From assembly GCF_943181405.1 (NCBI RefSeq), contig NZ_CALPBY010000003.1:186001-250000 (forward strand): DNA of 64,000 nt, read 5' to 3'. The notes below the pieces were generated by a model. It was not told the origin of the DNA, made no database searches, and was given only the letters and a program-made list of their open reading frames with translations. Made by a program: the position numbers and the translations under genes. The stretch comes from Cellulosimicrobium sp. Marseille-Q4280 (GTDB taxonomy: Bacteria; Actinomycetota; Actinomycetes; Actinomycetales; Cellulomonadaceae). Positions 32,735 to 37,678 of the stretch are shown piece after piece (positions within the stretch are counted from its first letter, which is position 1; the number at the start of each line of letters is the position of its first letter).

Positions 32735-34557
32735 TTGCCCGTCTCCTCGTCCGTGGTGCCCGTGGTGCCGGGCTCGTCGATGATCGTCGTCGTCGAGGAC
32801 CTGCTCGCCTCGTCGCTGCCGCTCAGGCGGTCGAGCGCCACGCTCTTCTCGCCGCGACGGTCGGCCTCGCCGTACACCTGCTCGAGGATGTTCGGGTTCG
32901 GCTCGGCGTGGTCCATCGCCGCGACCTCGGGGTGGTGCAGGTCGAAGGCCGGCGACTCGGAACGGATGCGCGGCAGCGACGTGAAGTTGTGCCGCGGCGG
33001 CGGGCAGGACGTGGCCCACTCGAGCGAGCGGCCGTAGCCCCACGGGTCGTCCACCTGCACCTTGGGCGCGTTGCGCCAGGTCGTGTAGACGTTCCAGAGG
33101 AAGGGCAGCGTCGACGCCGCGAGGATGAACGCACCCACGGTCGACACCTGGTTCTCCCAGGTGAAGCCGTCCGACGGAGCGTAGTCCGCGTACCGGCGGG
33201 GCATGCCCTCGACACCCAGCCAGTGCTGGATGAGGAACGTGGTGTGGAAGCCGATGAACAGCAGCCAGAAGTGGATCTTGCCGAGGCGCTCGTTGAGCAT
33301 CCGGCCCGTGAACTTGGGCCACCAGAAGTAGAAGCCGGCGAACATCGCGAAGACGACGGTCCCGAACACGACGTAGTGGAAGTGCGCCACGACGAAGTAC
33401 GAGTCGGAGAGGGAGAAGTCCAGCGCCGGGCTCGAGAGGATGATGCCCGTGAGCCCGCCGAAGAGGAACGTGACGAGGAAGCCGATCGACCAGAGCATCG
33501 GCGTCTCGAACGTGAGCTTGCCGCGCCACATCGTGCCGATCCAGTTGAAGAACTTCACGCCGGTCGGGACGGCGATGAGCATCGTCATGAAGGCGAAGAA
33601 GGGCAGCAGGACCGCACCGGTCACGTACATGTGGTGCGCCCAGACCGTCACCGAGAGCGCCGCGATCGCGATGGTCGCGTACACCAGACCCTTGTAGCCG
33701 AAGATCGGCTTGCGGCTGAACACCGGCAGGATCTCGGTGACGATGCCGAAGAACGGCAGCGCGATGATGTAGACCTCGGGGTGCCCGAAGAACCAGAACA
33801 GGTGCTGCCAGAGGATCGCGCCCCCGTTCTCGGGGTTGAAGATCTGGGCCCCGAGCCGGCGGTCCGCACCGAGCGCGAAGAGCGCGGAGGCCAGGGGCGG
33901 GAACGCCATGAGCACGAGCAGGCTCGTGACGAGGGTGTTCCAGGTGAAGATCGGCATCCGGAACATCGTCATGCCGGGCGCGCGCATCGTGATGATCGTG
34001 GTGATGAAGTTGACGGCGCCGAGGATCGTGCCGAAGCCGGCGAGCGCGAGCCCGAACACCCAGAGGTCTCCCCCGAGCCCTGGACTGAACGTGGTGTTCG
34101 ACAGCGGCGCGTAGGCGAACCACCCGAACGACGCGGCACCCTGGGGCGTGAAGAAGCCCGCCGACGCGATGAGGCCCCCGAAGAGGTAGAGCCAGTACGC
34201 GAACATGTTCAGCCGCGGGAACGCGACGTCCGGGGCACCGATCTGCAGCGGCATGATGACGTTCGCGAAGCCCGCGAAGAGCGGGGTGGCGAACAGCAGC
34301 AGCATGATCGTGCCGTGCATCGTGAAGAGCTGGTTGTACTGCTCCTTGCTCTGCACGAGCTGGATCCCGGGCTCGAAGAGCTCCGCCCGGATCACGAGGG
34401 CCATGAGGCCACCGATGCAGAAGAAGATGAACGACGAGATCAGGTACAGGTACCCGATCGTCTTGTGGTCGGTGGACGTGACCCACTTGATCACGGTCCG
34501 TCCCAAGGTCTGGCGCCGGGGCGCGAGACCGGGGATGACTTCGGCCTGCGCGACCAT
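32731..34557 (-). CDS. ctaD: Cytochrome c oxidase subunit I
   Basis: A 608-aa catalytic subunit with twelve TM helices that binds heme a, heme a3 and CuB and pumps protons. [17 protein letters not shown] holds the CuB His and the Tyr of the His-Tyr crosslink; AHHMYVTG supplies the other two CuB histidines, and [10 protein letters not shown] the heme a3 and heme a ligands. The N-terminal region with the first heme a His reads [17 protein letters not shown]. The start ATG overlaps the ctaC stop by one base. Confidence 0.96.
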
Positions 34558-35477
34558 CAGTGCTCACCCTCCGTGGTAGCGGCGACGGGGTTCGGGTCCT
34601 GGAGGCGGCTGAAGCCGTCGACGGGGATCTGGCCCTCCTGGCCCTTGTCGCGGAGCGCCTCCATCTGCGCGTCGAACTCGGCGCGGTCGACGACCTCGAC
34701 GTTGAACAGCATGCCCGAGTGGTGCTCGCCGCAGAGCTCGGCGCACTTCCCGGCGTAGACGCCCTCGCGCTCCGGGGTCACGACGAACTCGTTCGTGCGG
34801 TGCGGGATCATGTCCTGCTTGTAGAGGAACGCGGGGATCCAGAACGAGTGGATGACGTCGCGCGAGTCGAGCACGAACCGGATGCTCTCGCCGGCGGGCA
34901 GGTACAGCGTCGGCAGCACCTCTCCCGTGCCGGGCGCGCCGTCGATCGCGGCGTCCTCGGTCAGCGTCTCACCGACGTTGGCCAGGTGCTGACCGGTCTC
35001 GTAGACGTCCTCGTCGACGTAGTTGAAGTCCCAGCTCCACTGCTTGCCGATGACCTGGACGGTCATGTCGGACTCGACGTCCTTGTCCTGGATCGCGCTC
35101 ATGTCGCGGTCCGTGTAGAAGAACAGGACGAGGACCATGAGGATCGGCACAGCCGTGTACATGATCTCGAGCGGCAGGTGGTAGCGCGTCTGGACCGGCA
35201 GGACGTGGTCGTCCTTGCGCTTGCGGTAGGCGGCGACGCACCACAGCATCAGGCCCCACGTGATGATGCCGACGATGAGGGCGGCGATCCAGGAGCCGTT
35301 CCACAACGAGGTGATCCGTGCGGTCTGGTTGGTCACCTCCCCGTCGTCGTATCCGGGCAGGAACCCACGCTGGACCGTGTCGCTGGCACAGCCGGACGCC
35401 ACCGCCGCGACGGCGACGGCGAGTGCCGTCGCCCGCAGGATGGTGCGCCGTGTGCGGCTAGGGGGTTGCGAGTGCAA
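34557..35477 (-). CDS. ctaC: Cytochrome c oxidase subunit II
   Basis: A 306-aa lipoprotein-type subunit II. A signal peptide with lipobox VASGC30 is followed by two TM helices (about 60-83 and 104-121) and the extracytoplasmic cupredoxin domain. CuA ligands are all present: His210, Cys245, Glu247, Cys249, His253 and Met256 (in [12 protein letters not shown]). It takes electrons from QcrC and delivers them to heme a. The start is TTG at 35477, with AAAGG upstream; no ATG or GTG gives a complete signal peptide. Confidence 0.94.
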
Positions 35478-35845: not shown

Positions 35846-36991
35846 GTGACGCACACCACCCGCGCAGCCCGCGTCCGCCTCGACAACGGAGGGCGAGCGC
35901 CCTGGCACCCGCTCGCGCGCGAGGCCTTCGAGCAGGCGCTGGACGACGGCTGGGCGGACCCGCGCCGCCTCCACGCGGAAGGTCGCCGTGCCGCGGCGCT
36001 GCTCGACGGCGCGCGGGAGGCCGTGGCCTCCGCGCTCGGGGCGAGGACCGAGGAGGTCGTCTTCACGCCGTCGCACACCGCGTCGCTCCACACGGCCGTC
36101 GCGGCGCTCGCCGCGGGACGACGACGCGTCGGCTCGCGCGTCGTCGTGGGCGCGGTCGAGCGTGCCGCGGTGCTGCACGCCGCCGAGCACGGCGGGCTCG
36201 ACCGGGTCGTCGTCCCCGTGGACGGCTCCGGACGCGTGCGGTCCGGCGAGATGTGCGACGCCGTGGCCCGGCCGGGGACCGCCCTCGCCGCGCTGCAGCA
36301 CGCCAACGGCGAGGTGGGGACCCTCCAGCCGCTCGCGGAGGTCCACGAGGCGGCGCGCGCGGCAGGCGTCCCCGTGCTCGTCGACGCGGGCGCCAGCCTC
36401 GGGCACGCCTTCGTCGAGGAGTCGTGGGACGCGCTCGCCGCGGACCCGGGCGACTGGGGTGCTGCGCCCGGCGTGGCGGTGCTCGCCCTGCGCTCGCGCG
36501 TCCGACGGCGCAGCCCGTTCCCGGAGGACCCGGACCCCTTCGCGCCCGGCGGCGTCAGCGTCCCCGCGGCGTTCTCGGCCGCCGTGGGCCTCCAGACCGT
36601 CCTCGCGGACCGCGAGGCCCAGGACGAGCGCCGACGCGCGCTCGTCGACCGCGTCCGCACGCGCGTCGCCGCGATCCCCGACGTCGAGGTGGTGGGCGAC
36701 GCCGTCGACCGGCTCCCCCACGTCGTGACGTTCTCGTTCCTCTACGTCGACGGGGAGGCGCTGCTCACCGAGCTCGACCGGGAGGGGATCGCGGTCGGCT
36801 CGGGCTCGGCGTGCACGTCCAGCGCGCTCGAGCCGTCCCACGTGCTCGCGGCGATGGGCGTCCTCACCCACGGGAACGTCCGGATCGCGATCGACCGCTC
36901 GACGACCGAGGAGGACGTCGAGCGCCTCCTCGGGGTGCTGCCGGGCGCCGTCGCCCGCGTGCGCGCCGCACTCGGGGTCGAGGGCCTGTGA
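35846..36991 (+). CDS. Class V aminotransferase fold, cysteine-desulfurase-like, PLP lysine missing
   Basis: A 381-aa protein aligned by eye with NifS/IscS-type cysteine desulfurases. Conserved: QHANGEVGTLQP (PLP-stacking His152, Asn154), VDAGASLG (Asp180, pyridine contact) and the catalytic-cysteine loop GSGSACTSSALEPSHVL (Cys323). The Schiff-base lysine is not there: where relatives read SAHKWGGPAGVG, this protein has DPGDWGAAPGVA, placing Asp203 at the lysine position. No other Lys occurs in that stretch. The downstream tusA overlaps by four bases, so a sulfur-transfer role is expected, but normal PLP chemistry is doubtful. Start GTG with GGAG five bases upstream. Confidence 0.82.
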   Translation: MTHTTRAARVRLDNGGRAPWHPLAREAFEQALDDGWADPRRLHAEGRRAAALLDGAREAVASALGARTEEVVFTPSHTASLHTAVAALAAGRRRVGSRVVVGAVERAAVLHAAEHGGLDRVVVPVDGSGRVRSGEMCDAVARPGTALAALQHANGEVGTLQPLAEVHEAARAAGVPVLVDAGASLGHAFVEESWDALAADPGDWGAAPGVAVLALRSRVRRRSPFPEDPDPFAPGGVSVPAAFSAAVGLQTVLADREAQDERRRALVDRVRTRVAAIPDVEVVGDAVDRLPHVVTFSFLYVDGEALLTELDREGIAVGSGSACTSSALEPSHVLAAMGVLTHGNVRIAIDRSTTEEDVERLLGVLPGAVARVRAALGVEGL

Positions 36992-37263
36992 GCACCGACG
37001 ACGTGCCCGCCGCAGCGGGCGGGGCACCGGGGCCGGACGTGGTGGACGCCCGCGGGCTGCGCTGCCCGCTCCCCGTGATCCGCCTCGCCGCGGCGGCGCG
37101 CGGCCACGAGACCGGCGACCTGCTCACCGTGTGGTCGACGGACCCGGCCGCCCGTCTCGACGTGCCGGCCTGGGCACGCATGCGCGGCCACCGCGTCGTC
37201 GTGGAGCGCGAGCTGGCCGGCGCACCGGCGGCGTGGGCGATCACGGTCGAGCTCGGTCCCTGA
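36988..37263 (+). CDS. tusA: TusA-family sulfurtransferase
   Basis: A 91-aa SirA/TusA protein with the CPxP motif in ARGLRCPLPVIRLA; its Cys carries persulfide sulfur for tRNA thiolation, molybdenum cofactor or related pathways. The GTG start overlaps the desulfurase-like stop (GTGA), so the two are co-translated. TusA normally takes sulfur from a cysteine desulfurase; its partner here lacks the PLP lysine, which makes the source of sulfur uncertain. A terminator follows. Confidence 0.85.
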   Translation: MSTDDVPAAAGGAPGPDVVDARGLRCPLPVIRLAAAARGHETGDLLTVWSTDPAARLDVPAWARMRGHRVVVERELAGAPAAWAITVELGP

Positions 37264-37327: not shown

Positions 37328-37678
37328 TCAGCTGAAGGAGCCGCCGCACGCGCAGGCGCTGCCCGCGTTGGGGTTGTCGATGGTGAAGCCCTGCTTCTCG
37401 ATCGTGTCGGCGAAGTCGATCGTCGCCCCCTCGAGGTACGGGACGCTCATCTTGTCGACCACGACCTCGACGCCGTCGTAGTCGCGCAGGGCATCGCCCT
37501 CGAGAAGACGCTCGTCGAAGTAGAGCTGGTAGATCAGGCCGGAACAGCCGCCGGGCTGCACCGCGACGCGCAGACGCAGGTCGTCGCGGCCCTCCTGCTC
37601 GAGGAGGGTGCGGACCTTGTCCGCGGCCACATCGGTCAGGTCGACGCCGTGGGTGGCAATCTCGGTGGTCTCGCTCAT
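37328..37678 (-). CDS. erpA: Iron-sulfur cluster insertion protein (A-type carrier)
   Basis: A 116-aa HesB/IscA/ErpA protein that carries Fe-S clusters to apo-enzymes. The three ligand cysteines are in QPGGCSGLIYQL and the C-terminal NAGSACACGGSF. Start ATG with GGAG five bases upstream. Location beside the glycerate-kinase-like gene matches Rv2204c-Rv2205c. Likely clients nearby in the genome include NadA and the Rieske protein. Confidence 0.93.
   Translation of the reverse strand: MSETTEIATHGVDLTDVAADKVRTLLEQEGRDDLRLRVAVQPGGCSGLIYQLYFDERLLEGDALRDYDGVEVVVDKMSVPYLEGATIDFADTIEKQGFTIDNPNAGSACACGGSFS

Follow-up and report, generated by a model that had tools for sequence, protein, structure and literature searches.

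The 64,000-nucleotide stretch of DNA analysed here (the window) corresponds to positions 186,001 to 250,000 of contig NZ_CALPBY010000003.1 from Cellulosimicrobium sp. Marseille-Q4280 and contains two overlapping genes, one for a protein with the fold of NifS/IscS-type cysteine desulfurases and one for the sulfur-carrier protein TusA. The former lacks the lysine residue that forms the Schiff base with pyridoxal phosphate (PLP) in cysteine desulfurases and is termed the Lys-less protein in the following. All positions are those of the window.

35846..36991, + strand: Lys-less protein of the NifS/IscS fold, 381 amino acids (aa), GTG start; profile matches and alignment
36988..37263, + strand: sulfur carrier TusA of 91 aa, its GTG start overlapping the upstream stop; PF01206

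The IscS/NifS (IscS/Nfs1) fold of class I desulfurases spans the full length of the 381-aa protein, which matches the Aminotran_5 profile PF00266 with an E-value of 1.5e-36 in a profile search. Its best NCBIfam equivalog is NifS (TIGR03402), at 197.8 bits against a cut-off of 530.75. This low score was rejected as a sign of lost function since a Lys-bearing NifS-type paralogue of the same genome also stays below the cut-off (380.2 of 530.75 bits), which consequently does not separate Lys-less from Lys-bearing proteins. The stop of the Lys-less gene overlaps the start of the TusA gene in the tetranucleotide GTGA (36988-36991). This coupling to TusA had been recognized in the first-pass annotation, made from the sequence alone, and is corroborated by a PF01206 score of 65 bits for the downstream product (cut-off 28.6); the genome contains no other match to this family at E<=0.001. 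Scans for sigma-70 promoters and terminators between 35450 and 37400 found none.

The residues of the former active site on which the analysis is based are encoded as follows.

36161..36163, + strand: codon of Arg106, at the position of the PLP-stacking His; ortholog alignment
36392..36394, + strand: codon of Ala183, Gln in NifS/IscS; ortholog alignment
36452..36454, + strand: codon GAC of Asp203, at the position of the PLP Schiff-base lysine; alignments to solved desulfurases and orthologs
36812..36814, + strand: codon of Cys323 in the SGSAC loop, the Cys on which desulfurases form the persulfide; invariant in 171/171 orthologs
36881..36883, + strand: codon of Arg346; invariant in 171/171 orthologs

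The assignment of Asp203 to the Schiff-base lysine position, already made in the first-pass annotation, is confirmed by these alignments. Moreover, the entire protein contains no lysine at all, so that an internal aldimine is impossible irrespective of any alignment and another lysine acting at this site is ruled out; a sequencing error, also considered at that stage, or a frameshift is excluded by the presence of the same Asp in 15/15 same-genus orthologs read. The SAHK motif is replaced by Asp200-Pro-Gly202-Asp203 and the phosphate-loop Gly by His77. The PLP-stacking His, which the first-pass annotation had listed as kept, is in fact Arg106 (AVERAAV). Asn154, Asp180, Arg346 and Cys323 with its SGSAC loop are unchanged, in agreement with the retention of the Asp and of the catalytic-Cys loop noted earlier, and the loop 322-329 around Cys323 has a predicted local distance difference test score (pLDDT) below 50 in the predicted structure, in line with the mobile SGSxC loop of class I desulfurases. 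The roles of these columns in ring stacking, phosphate binding, the O3' contact and, for Arg346, binding of the substrate carboxylate are presumed from the IscS/NifS structures. Normal PLP chemistry thus appears to be lost, as surely as a sequence can tell.

The loss is clade-wide among the orthologs read. The gene was found at E<=1e-50 in 61 of 248 genomes of the window's order; an order-wide search listed 62 places, 61 of them free of internal stops, and none of the 41 orthologs read from these (40 fetched plus that of the window) carries the lysine. For the class outside this order, 55 distinct loci were compiled non-randomly, with one or few per family and low-scoring families deliberately added; 42 of them keep the lysine and 13, belonging to families f40, f41, f50, f51 and f57, have lost it. 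Among the named loci, 78/80 are without this lysine, both keepers being Microbispora. One of the records, titled Sphaerisporangium cinnabarinum ATCC 31213 (L032), matches a locus of the window's genus (L014) in identity and motifs and looks mislabelled or contaminated. Merging the named, same-genus, order and class loci at less than 97% identity gave 171 orthologs, 43 Lys-bearing and 128 Lys-less, after removal of 15 Lys-bearing paralogues (L002, L018-L031), the window itself (L001), two short loci (L017 and L045), identical copies and near-duplicates (>=97% identity). Every one of the 171 has both Cys323 and Arg346. The 43 Lys-bearing orthologs invariably contain Lys203, His106, Gly77, Thr78 and Ser200, and 29 of them Gln183, whereas column 203 of the 128 Lys-less ones is occupied by Asp (100), Ser (12), Ala (6), Gly (5), Thr (3), Glu (1) or Met (1). 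Asp203 and Arg106 co-occur in 82/84 Asp203 orthologs, which suggests a salt bridge between them in place of Lys-PLP, although tests on independent pairs, too few in number, were not significant.

Selection has split the protein into a decayed PLP pocket and an intact Cys loop. Comparing 48 Lys-less with 28 Lys-bearing sequences, the mean column entropy rises from 0.78 to 1.90 in the phosphate loop, from 0.35 to 1.10 in the His loop and from 0.46 to 1.37 in the Lys loop, at a background of 1.17 and 1.48, respectively; it is mildly higher for the Lys-less proteins in the Arg loop (0.70 v 0.56), whereas the Cys loop shows no change (0.68 v 0.69). The ratio of nonsynonymous to synonymous substitution rates (dN/dS) within the genus has a median of 0.166 (104 pairs), far below 1, and the Lys-less protein is under purifying selection. 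Ordinary decay, i.e. a desulfurase heading for loss whose Cys persists solely on structural or historical grounds, would agree with the relaxed pocket columns, the restriction of the gene to 61/248 genomes of the order, the missing TusA in some lineages (see below) and a dN/dS somewhat above that of the Lys-bearing paralogue (0.124). We nevertheless regard it as improbable, given the low dN/dS itself, the invariant Cys and Arg over 128 Lys-less orthologs, a Cys loop conserved as in the Lys-bearing relatives, and open reading frames without internal stop at all but one of the places listed for the order.

How often the lysine was lost was addressed with trees that additionally exclude sequences more than 72-80% identical and a small number with long branches. 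Parsimony requires 6 changes on a 98-row tree and 6 on an 89-row tree without the pocket columns, 2 of them forced by well-supported branches in either case, and 5 changes on a 72-row tree, with 1 forced. Since approximately unbiased (AU) tests do not reject a single origin (p 0.226 and p 0.258), repeated loss is not shown. Family f51, with Asp at the lysine site (SARDWGG), lies among Lys-bearing rows in the 98-row and 89-row trees and beside families of the window's order, at a support of 26, in the 72-row tree. L162, from one fragmented genome, reads SAHM and looks like a separate loss.

The gene pair is embedded in a conserved neighbourhood with two further genes.

34557..35477, - strand: CtaC, subunit II of cytochrome c oxidase; conserved neighbour in divergent orientation, outside the proposed mechanism
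37328..37678, - strand: HesB/ErpA-like A-type Fe-S carrier, PF01521; conserved neighbour in convergent orientation, perhaps a client or partner

At loci flanked by 2.5 kb or more on each side (66 Lys-less, 33 Lys-bearing), the fetched stretch includes CtaC in 66/66 Lys-less and 31/33 Lys-bearing cases, HesB in 64/66 and 29/33, and TusA in 63/66 and 31/33, respectively. The Lys-less and Lys-bearing proteins in this ctaC-NifS-TusA-HesB neighbourhood are the same gene and not a paralogue; the Lys-bearing NifS-type paralogue of the genome lies elsewhere, adjoining MnmA, and shares 38% identity with the Lys-less protein. CtaD (divergent, with CtaC), glycerate kinase and NadA are further neighbours, and the closest named match is C. 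marinum (86%).

TusA has retained the residues expected of a sulfur acceptor.

37063..37065, + strand: codon of Cys26, the CPLP cysteine of TusA; TusA alignment

Besides the CPxP Cys, the window TusA carries both conserved Asp, which by comparison with the E. coli TusA sequence are the probable counterparts of Asp45 and Asp51. Among 95 aligned TusA partners of Lys-less proteins (from 106 representatives), the Cys is present in 94 and each of the two Asp in 95. In the E. coli complex (3lvj), as described in PMC2854127, the Cys of the desulfurase loop passes its sulfur to the TusA Cys, and Asp45 and Asp51, near Cys19 of TusA, are absolutely conserved at the site of hand-over. Unlike the Lys-less protein, E. 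coli IscS generates the persulfide itself, by means of PLP. NifS and TusA also occur as natural fusion proteins, of 478 aa in a Lys-less lineage (L105/L123, a single contig fetched two times) and of 456-465 aa in Lys-bearing lineages (L144 and L145).

The best PDB sequence match of the Lys-less protein is IscS of Archaeoglobus fulgidus ('IscS 2'; 4eb5, 4eb7, 4hvk), which shares the Lys-to-Asp substitution and the retained Cys, Asp199 of 4eb5 being aligned to Asp203. PDB titles (4hvk, 4r5f) call this protein unusual; 4r5f is its D199K mutant. According to PMC7585200, its desulfurase activity is absent because of the substitution and its Cys provides a ligand to the [2Fe-2S] cluster on IscU. The two proteins differ in that the archaeal one has IscU as partner and keeps the stacking His, while the one described here is coupled to TusA, has Arg106 and comes from a bacterial order in which the orthologs read share the loss. 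The same text reports that IscS1 of Methanosarcina acetivorans likewise lacks the catalytic lysine while keeping the Cys motif (STGSACFS); unlike the window protein, it comes from an archaeon and has iscU adjacent, and its recombinant form ended up in inclusion bodies. Also close in kind are the Lys-bearing actinobacterial pairs (e.g. L110 of Microbispora, and L144), direct orthologs with the same neighbourhood and the same TusA residues that differ by their intact pocket and would, judged by sequence, be ordinary PLP desulfurases. The Lys-less profile scores 238.3 bits against wild-type A. fulgidus IscS vs 236.3 against D199K, and L110 scores 200.4 bits against the D199K form vs 197.7 against wild-type; the similarity to the archaeal protein is thus older than the lysine loss. 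Together with the Lys-bearing orthologs in the same neighbourhood, this indicates that the lysine was probably lost independently in the archaeon and in the actinobacteria. The first-pass designation as an undescribed sulfur-transfer pair was therefore too strong, a Lys-less IscS with Lys-to-Asp exchange being known from A. fulgidus and the kind thus not wholly new. What is new is the order-wide conservation, the TusA partner and perhaps repeated loss; no account of the actinobacterial Lys-less protein was found in the literature searched, subscription journals lying largely outside that search.

The archaeal precedent bears on two other interpretations. A PLP enzyme working by an unusual route, with non-covalently held PLP and no internal aldimine, would be compatible with the preserved substrate and catalytic side (Asn154, Asp180, Arg346 and Cys323); it is highly improbable, as the Gly/Thr of the phosphate loop, the stacking His, the Gln and SAHK are changed together and the A. 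fulgidus protein is reported to be inactive (PMC7585200). By analogy with the latter, Cys323 could instead be an additional ligand that donates no sulfur but assists in the assembly or transfer of an Fe-S cluster, either on SufU or on the neighbouring A-type carrier. Besides the A. fulgidus protein, described in PMC7585200 as inactive by the same exchange and yet as giving a Cys ligand to [2Fe-2S] on IscU, the proximity of HesB at 64/66 Lys-less loci and the retention of the Cys where no TusA was detected speak for such a role. However, the coupled gene encodes TusA with intact residues and not IscU, no IscU/NifU-type gene was found among the ten neighbouring open reading frames scanned, where TusA and HesB are present instead, and HesB is about as common at Lys-bearing loci (29/33). 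Altogether, we consider the ligand function unlikely, though a rival to be taken seriously.

The donor side raises a further alternative. The Lys-less chain might pair with one of the genome's Lys-bearing desulfurases in a heterodimer and steer the latter's sulfur to TusA, for which the combination of subunits in serine palmitoyltransferase is a precedent. The genome holds a Lys-bearing NifS-type protein beside MnmA as well as SufS-type proteins, and in the dimeric E. coli IscS the Cys that supplies TusA with sulfur belongs to the opposite subunit (PMC2854127). The MnmA-linked paralogue is only 38% identical to its supposed partner, however, and we find a mixed dimer quite unlikely, if likewise a serious rival.

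The best explanation, to which we give about an even chance, would be a PLP-independent persulfide relay or adaptor that acts via Cys323 and is loaded by another donor. The Lys-less protein would descend from class I (NifS/IscS-type) cysteine desulfurases. By its sequence, with the PLP lysine absent and the phosphate, ring and O3' contacts changed, it should be incapable of releasing sulfur from cysteine through the established mechanism. Its mobile loop would be kept for Cys323, which is invariant and presumably serves as persulfide carrier or docking Cys. In most species the sulfur may be handed to TusA of the overlapping gene, as suggested by the coupling and the intact TusA residues. It would have to come from another donor, the most plausible candidates being inorganic sulfane sulfur and the Lys-bearing desulfurases that the genome encodes, of the SufS type or the MnmA-linked NifS type. 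The genome also encodes a SufS-like desulfurase (L197, G000:C5:352476-354783) that reads SGHK, scores 277.8 bits to TIGR01979, below the cut-off, and has a rhodanese adjacent; this pair is a conceivable sulfane-sulfur donor for the relay. A link to molybdopterin synthesis was discarded as uninformative: MoaE occurs in 197/248 genomes of the order and is absent from some gene carriers (G213, G236, G258).

The clade-wide lysine loss, the strict retention of the Cys and the intact TusA support the first-pass annotation in its suggestion of a continued role in sulfur handling, possibly that of a persulfide relay. Several findings weigh against the relay, above all against TusA as its obligate partner. 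TusA adjoins 41/43 Lys-bearing orthologs, with a GTGA ending in 26/34, so that the linkage was inherited and is not specific to the Lys-less state. No TusA was detected beside 22/128 Lys-less orthologs, and the Cys is kept in 22/22 of these; its work thus does not always need a coupled TusA. When ten genomes with such a TusA-less gene were searched as a whole, 8 gave at least one PF01206 match, in many cases a weak one or one within a different protein, and G105 and G325 had none anywhere. The Asn and Asp180 loops are somewhat slackened (entropy 0.73 v 0.57 and 1.02 v 0.78), no sulfur-donor gene was found at the locus, and the preserved Cys could be a metal or Fe-S ligand instead.

The TusA-less cases include the genomes of two species of the window's own genus Cellulosimicrobium (L015, L016), in which the Lys-less protein and its Cys are kept, no adjacent TusA was detected and the only PF01206 matches are weak TusA-like proteins elsewhere, with GCARLL in place of CPxP. 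They also include L114, L124, L209, L210, L213, L215, L216 and L217 (family f9 of the order); in many of these the Cys loop is altered, one example being SGSACGKAAFEPS, which may reflect another change of function. Genome G175 carries two Lys-less copies, L127 and L128. A PF01206 match adjoins the second; the Cys loop of L128 is GCGCTCGRHP, and the TusA beside it has Asn instead of its Cys.

With the lysine lost and the persulfide Cys and usually an adjoining TusA kept, the protein probably relays sulfur that originates elsewhere, and the label 'cysteine desulfurase' on the Lys-less genes is probably wrong. PLP enzymes that lose their lysine normally lose their reaction; here, the protein persists under purifying selection with its sulfur-carrying Cys untouched, and many soil actinobacteria keep it. 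The occurrence of Lys-bearing and Lys-less orthologs in the same neighbourhood provides a natural experiment that separates the Cys-relay function of desulfurases from their chemistry. Tentatively, and with rather less than even confidence, we envisage that evolution has converted a desulfurase fold, perhaps on several occasions, into a persulfide relay that works without a cofactor and draws on a separate sulfur donor. It would keep the loop Cys, the substrate-side Arg/Asn/Asp and the hand-off to TusA, with a pocket rebuilt around Arg106, Asp203 and His77, and may form a standing node of sulfur trafficking in this actinobacterial order.
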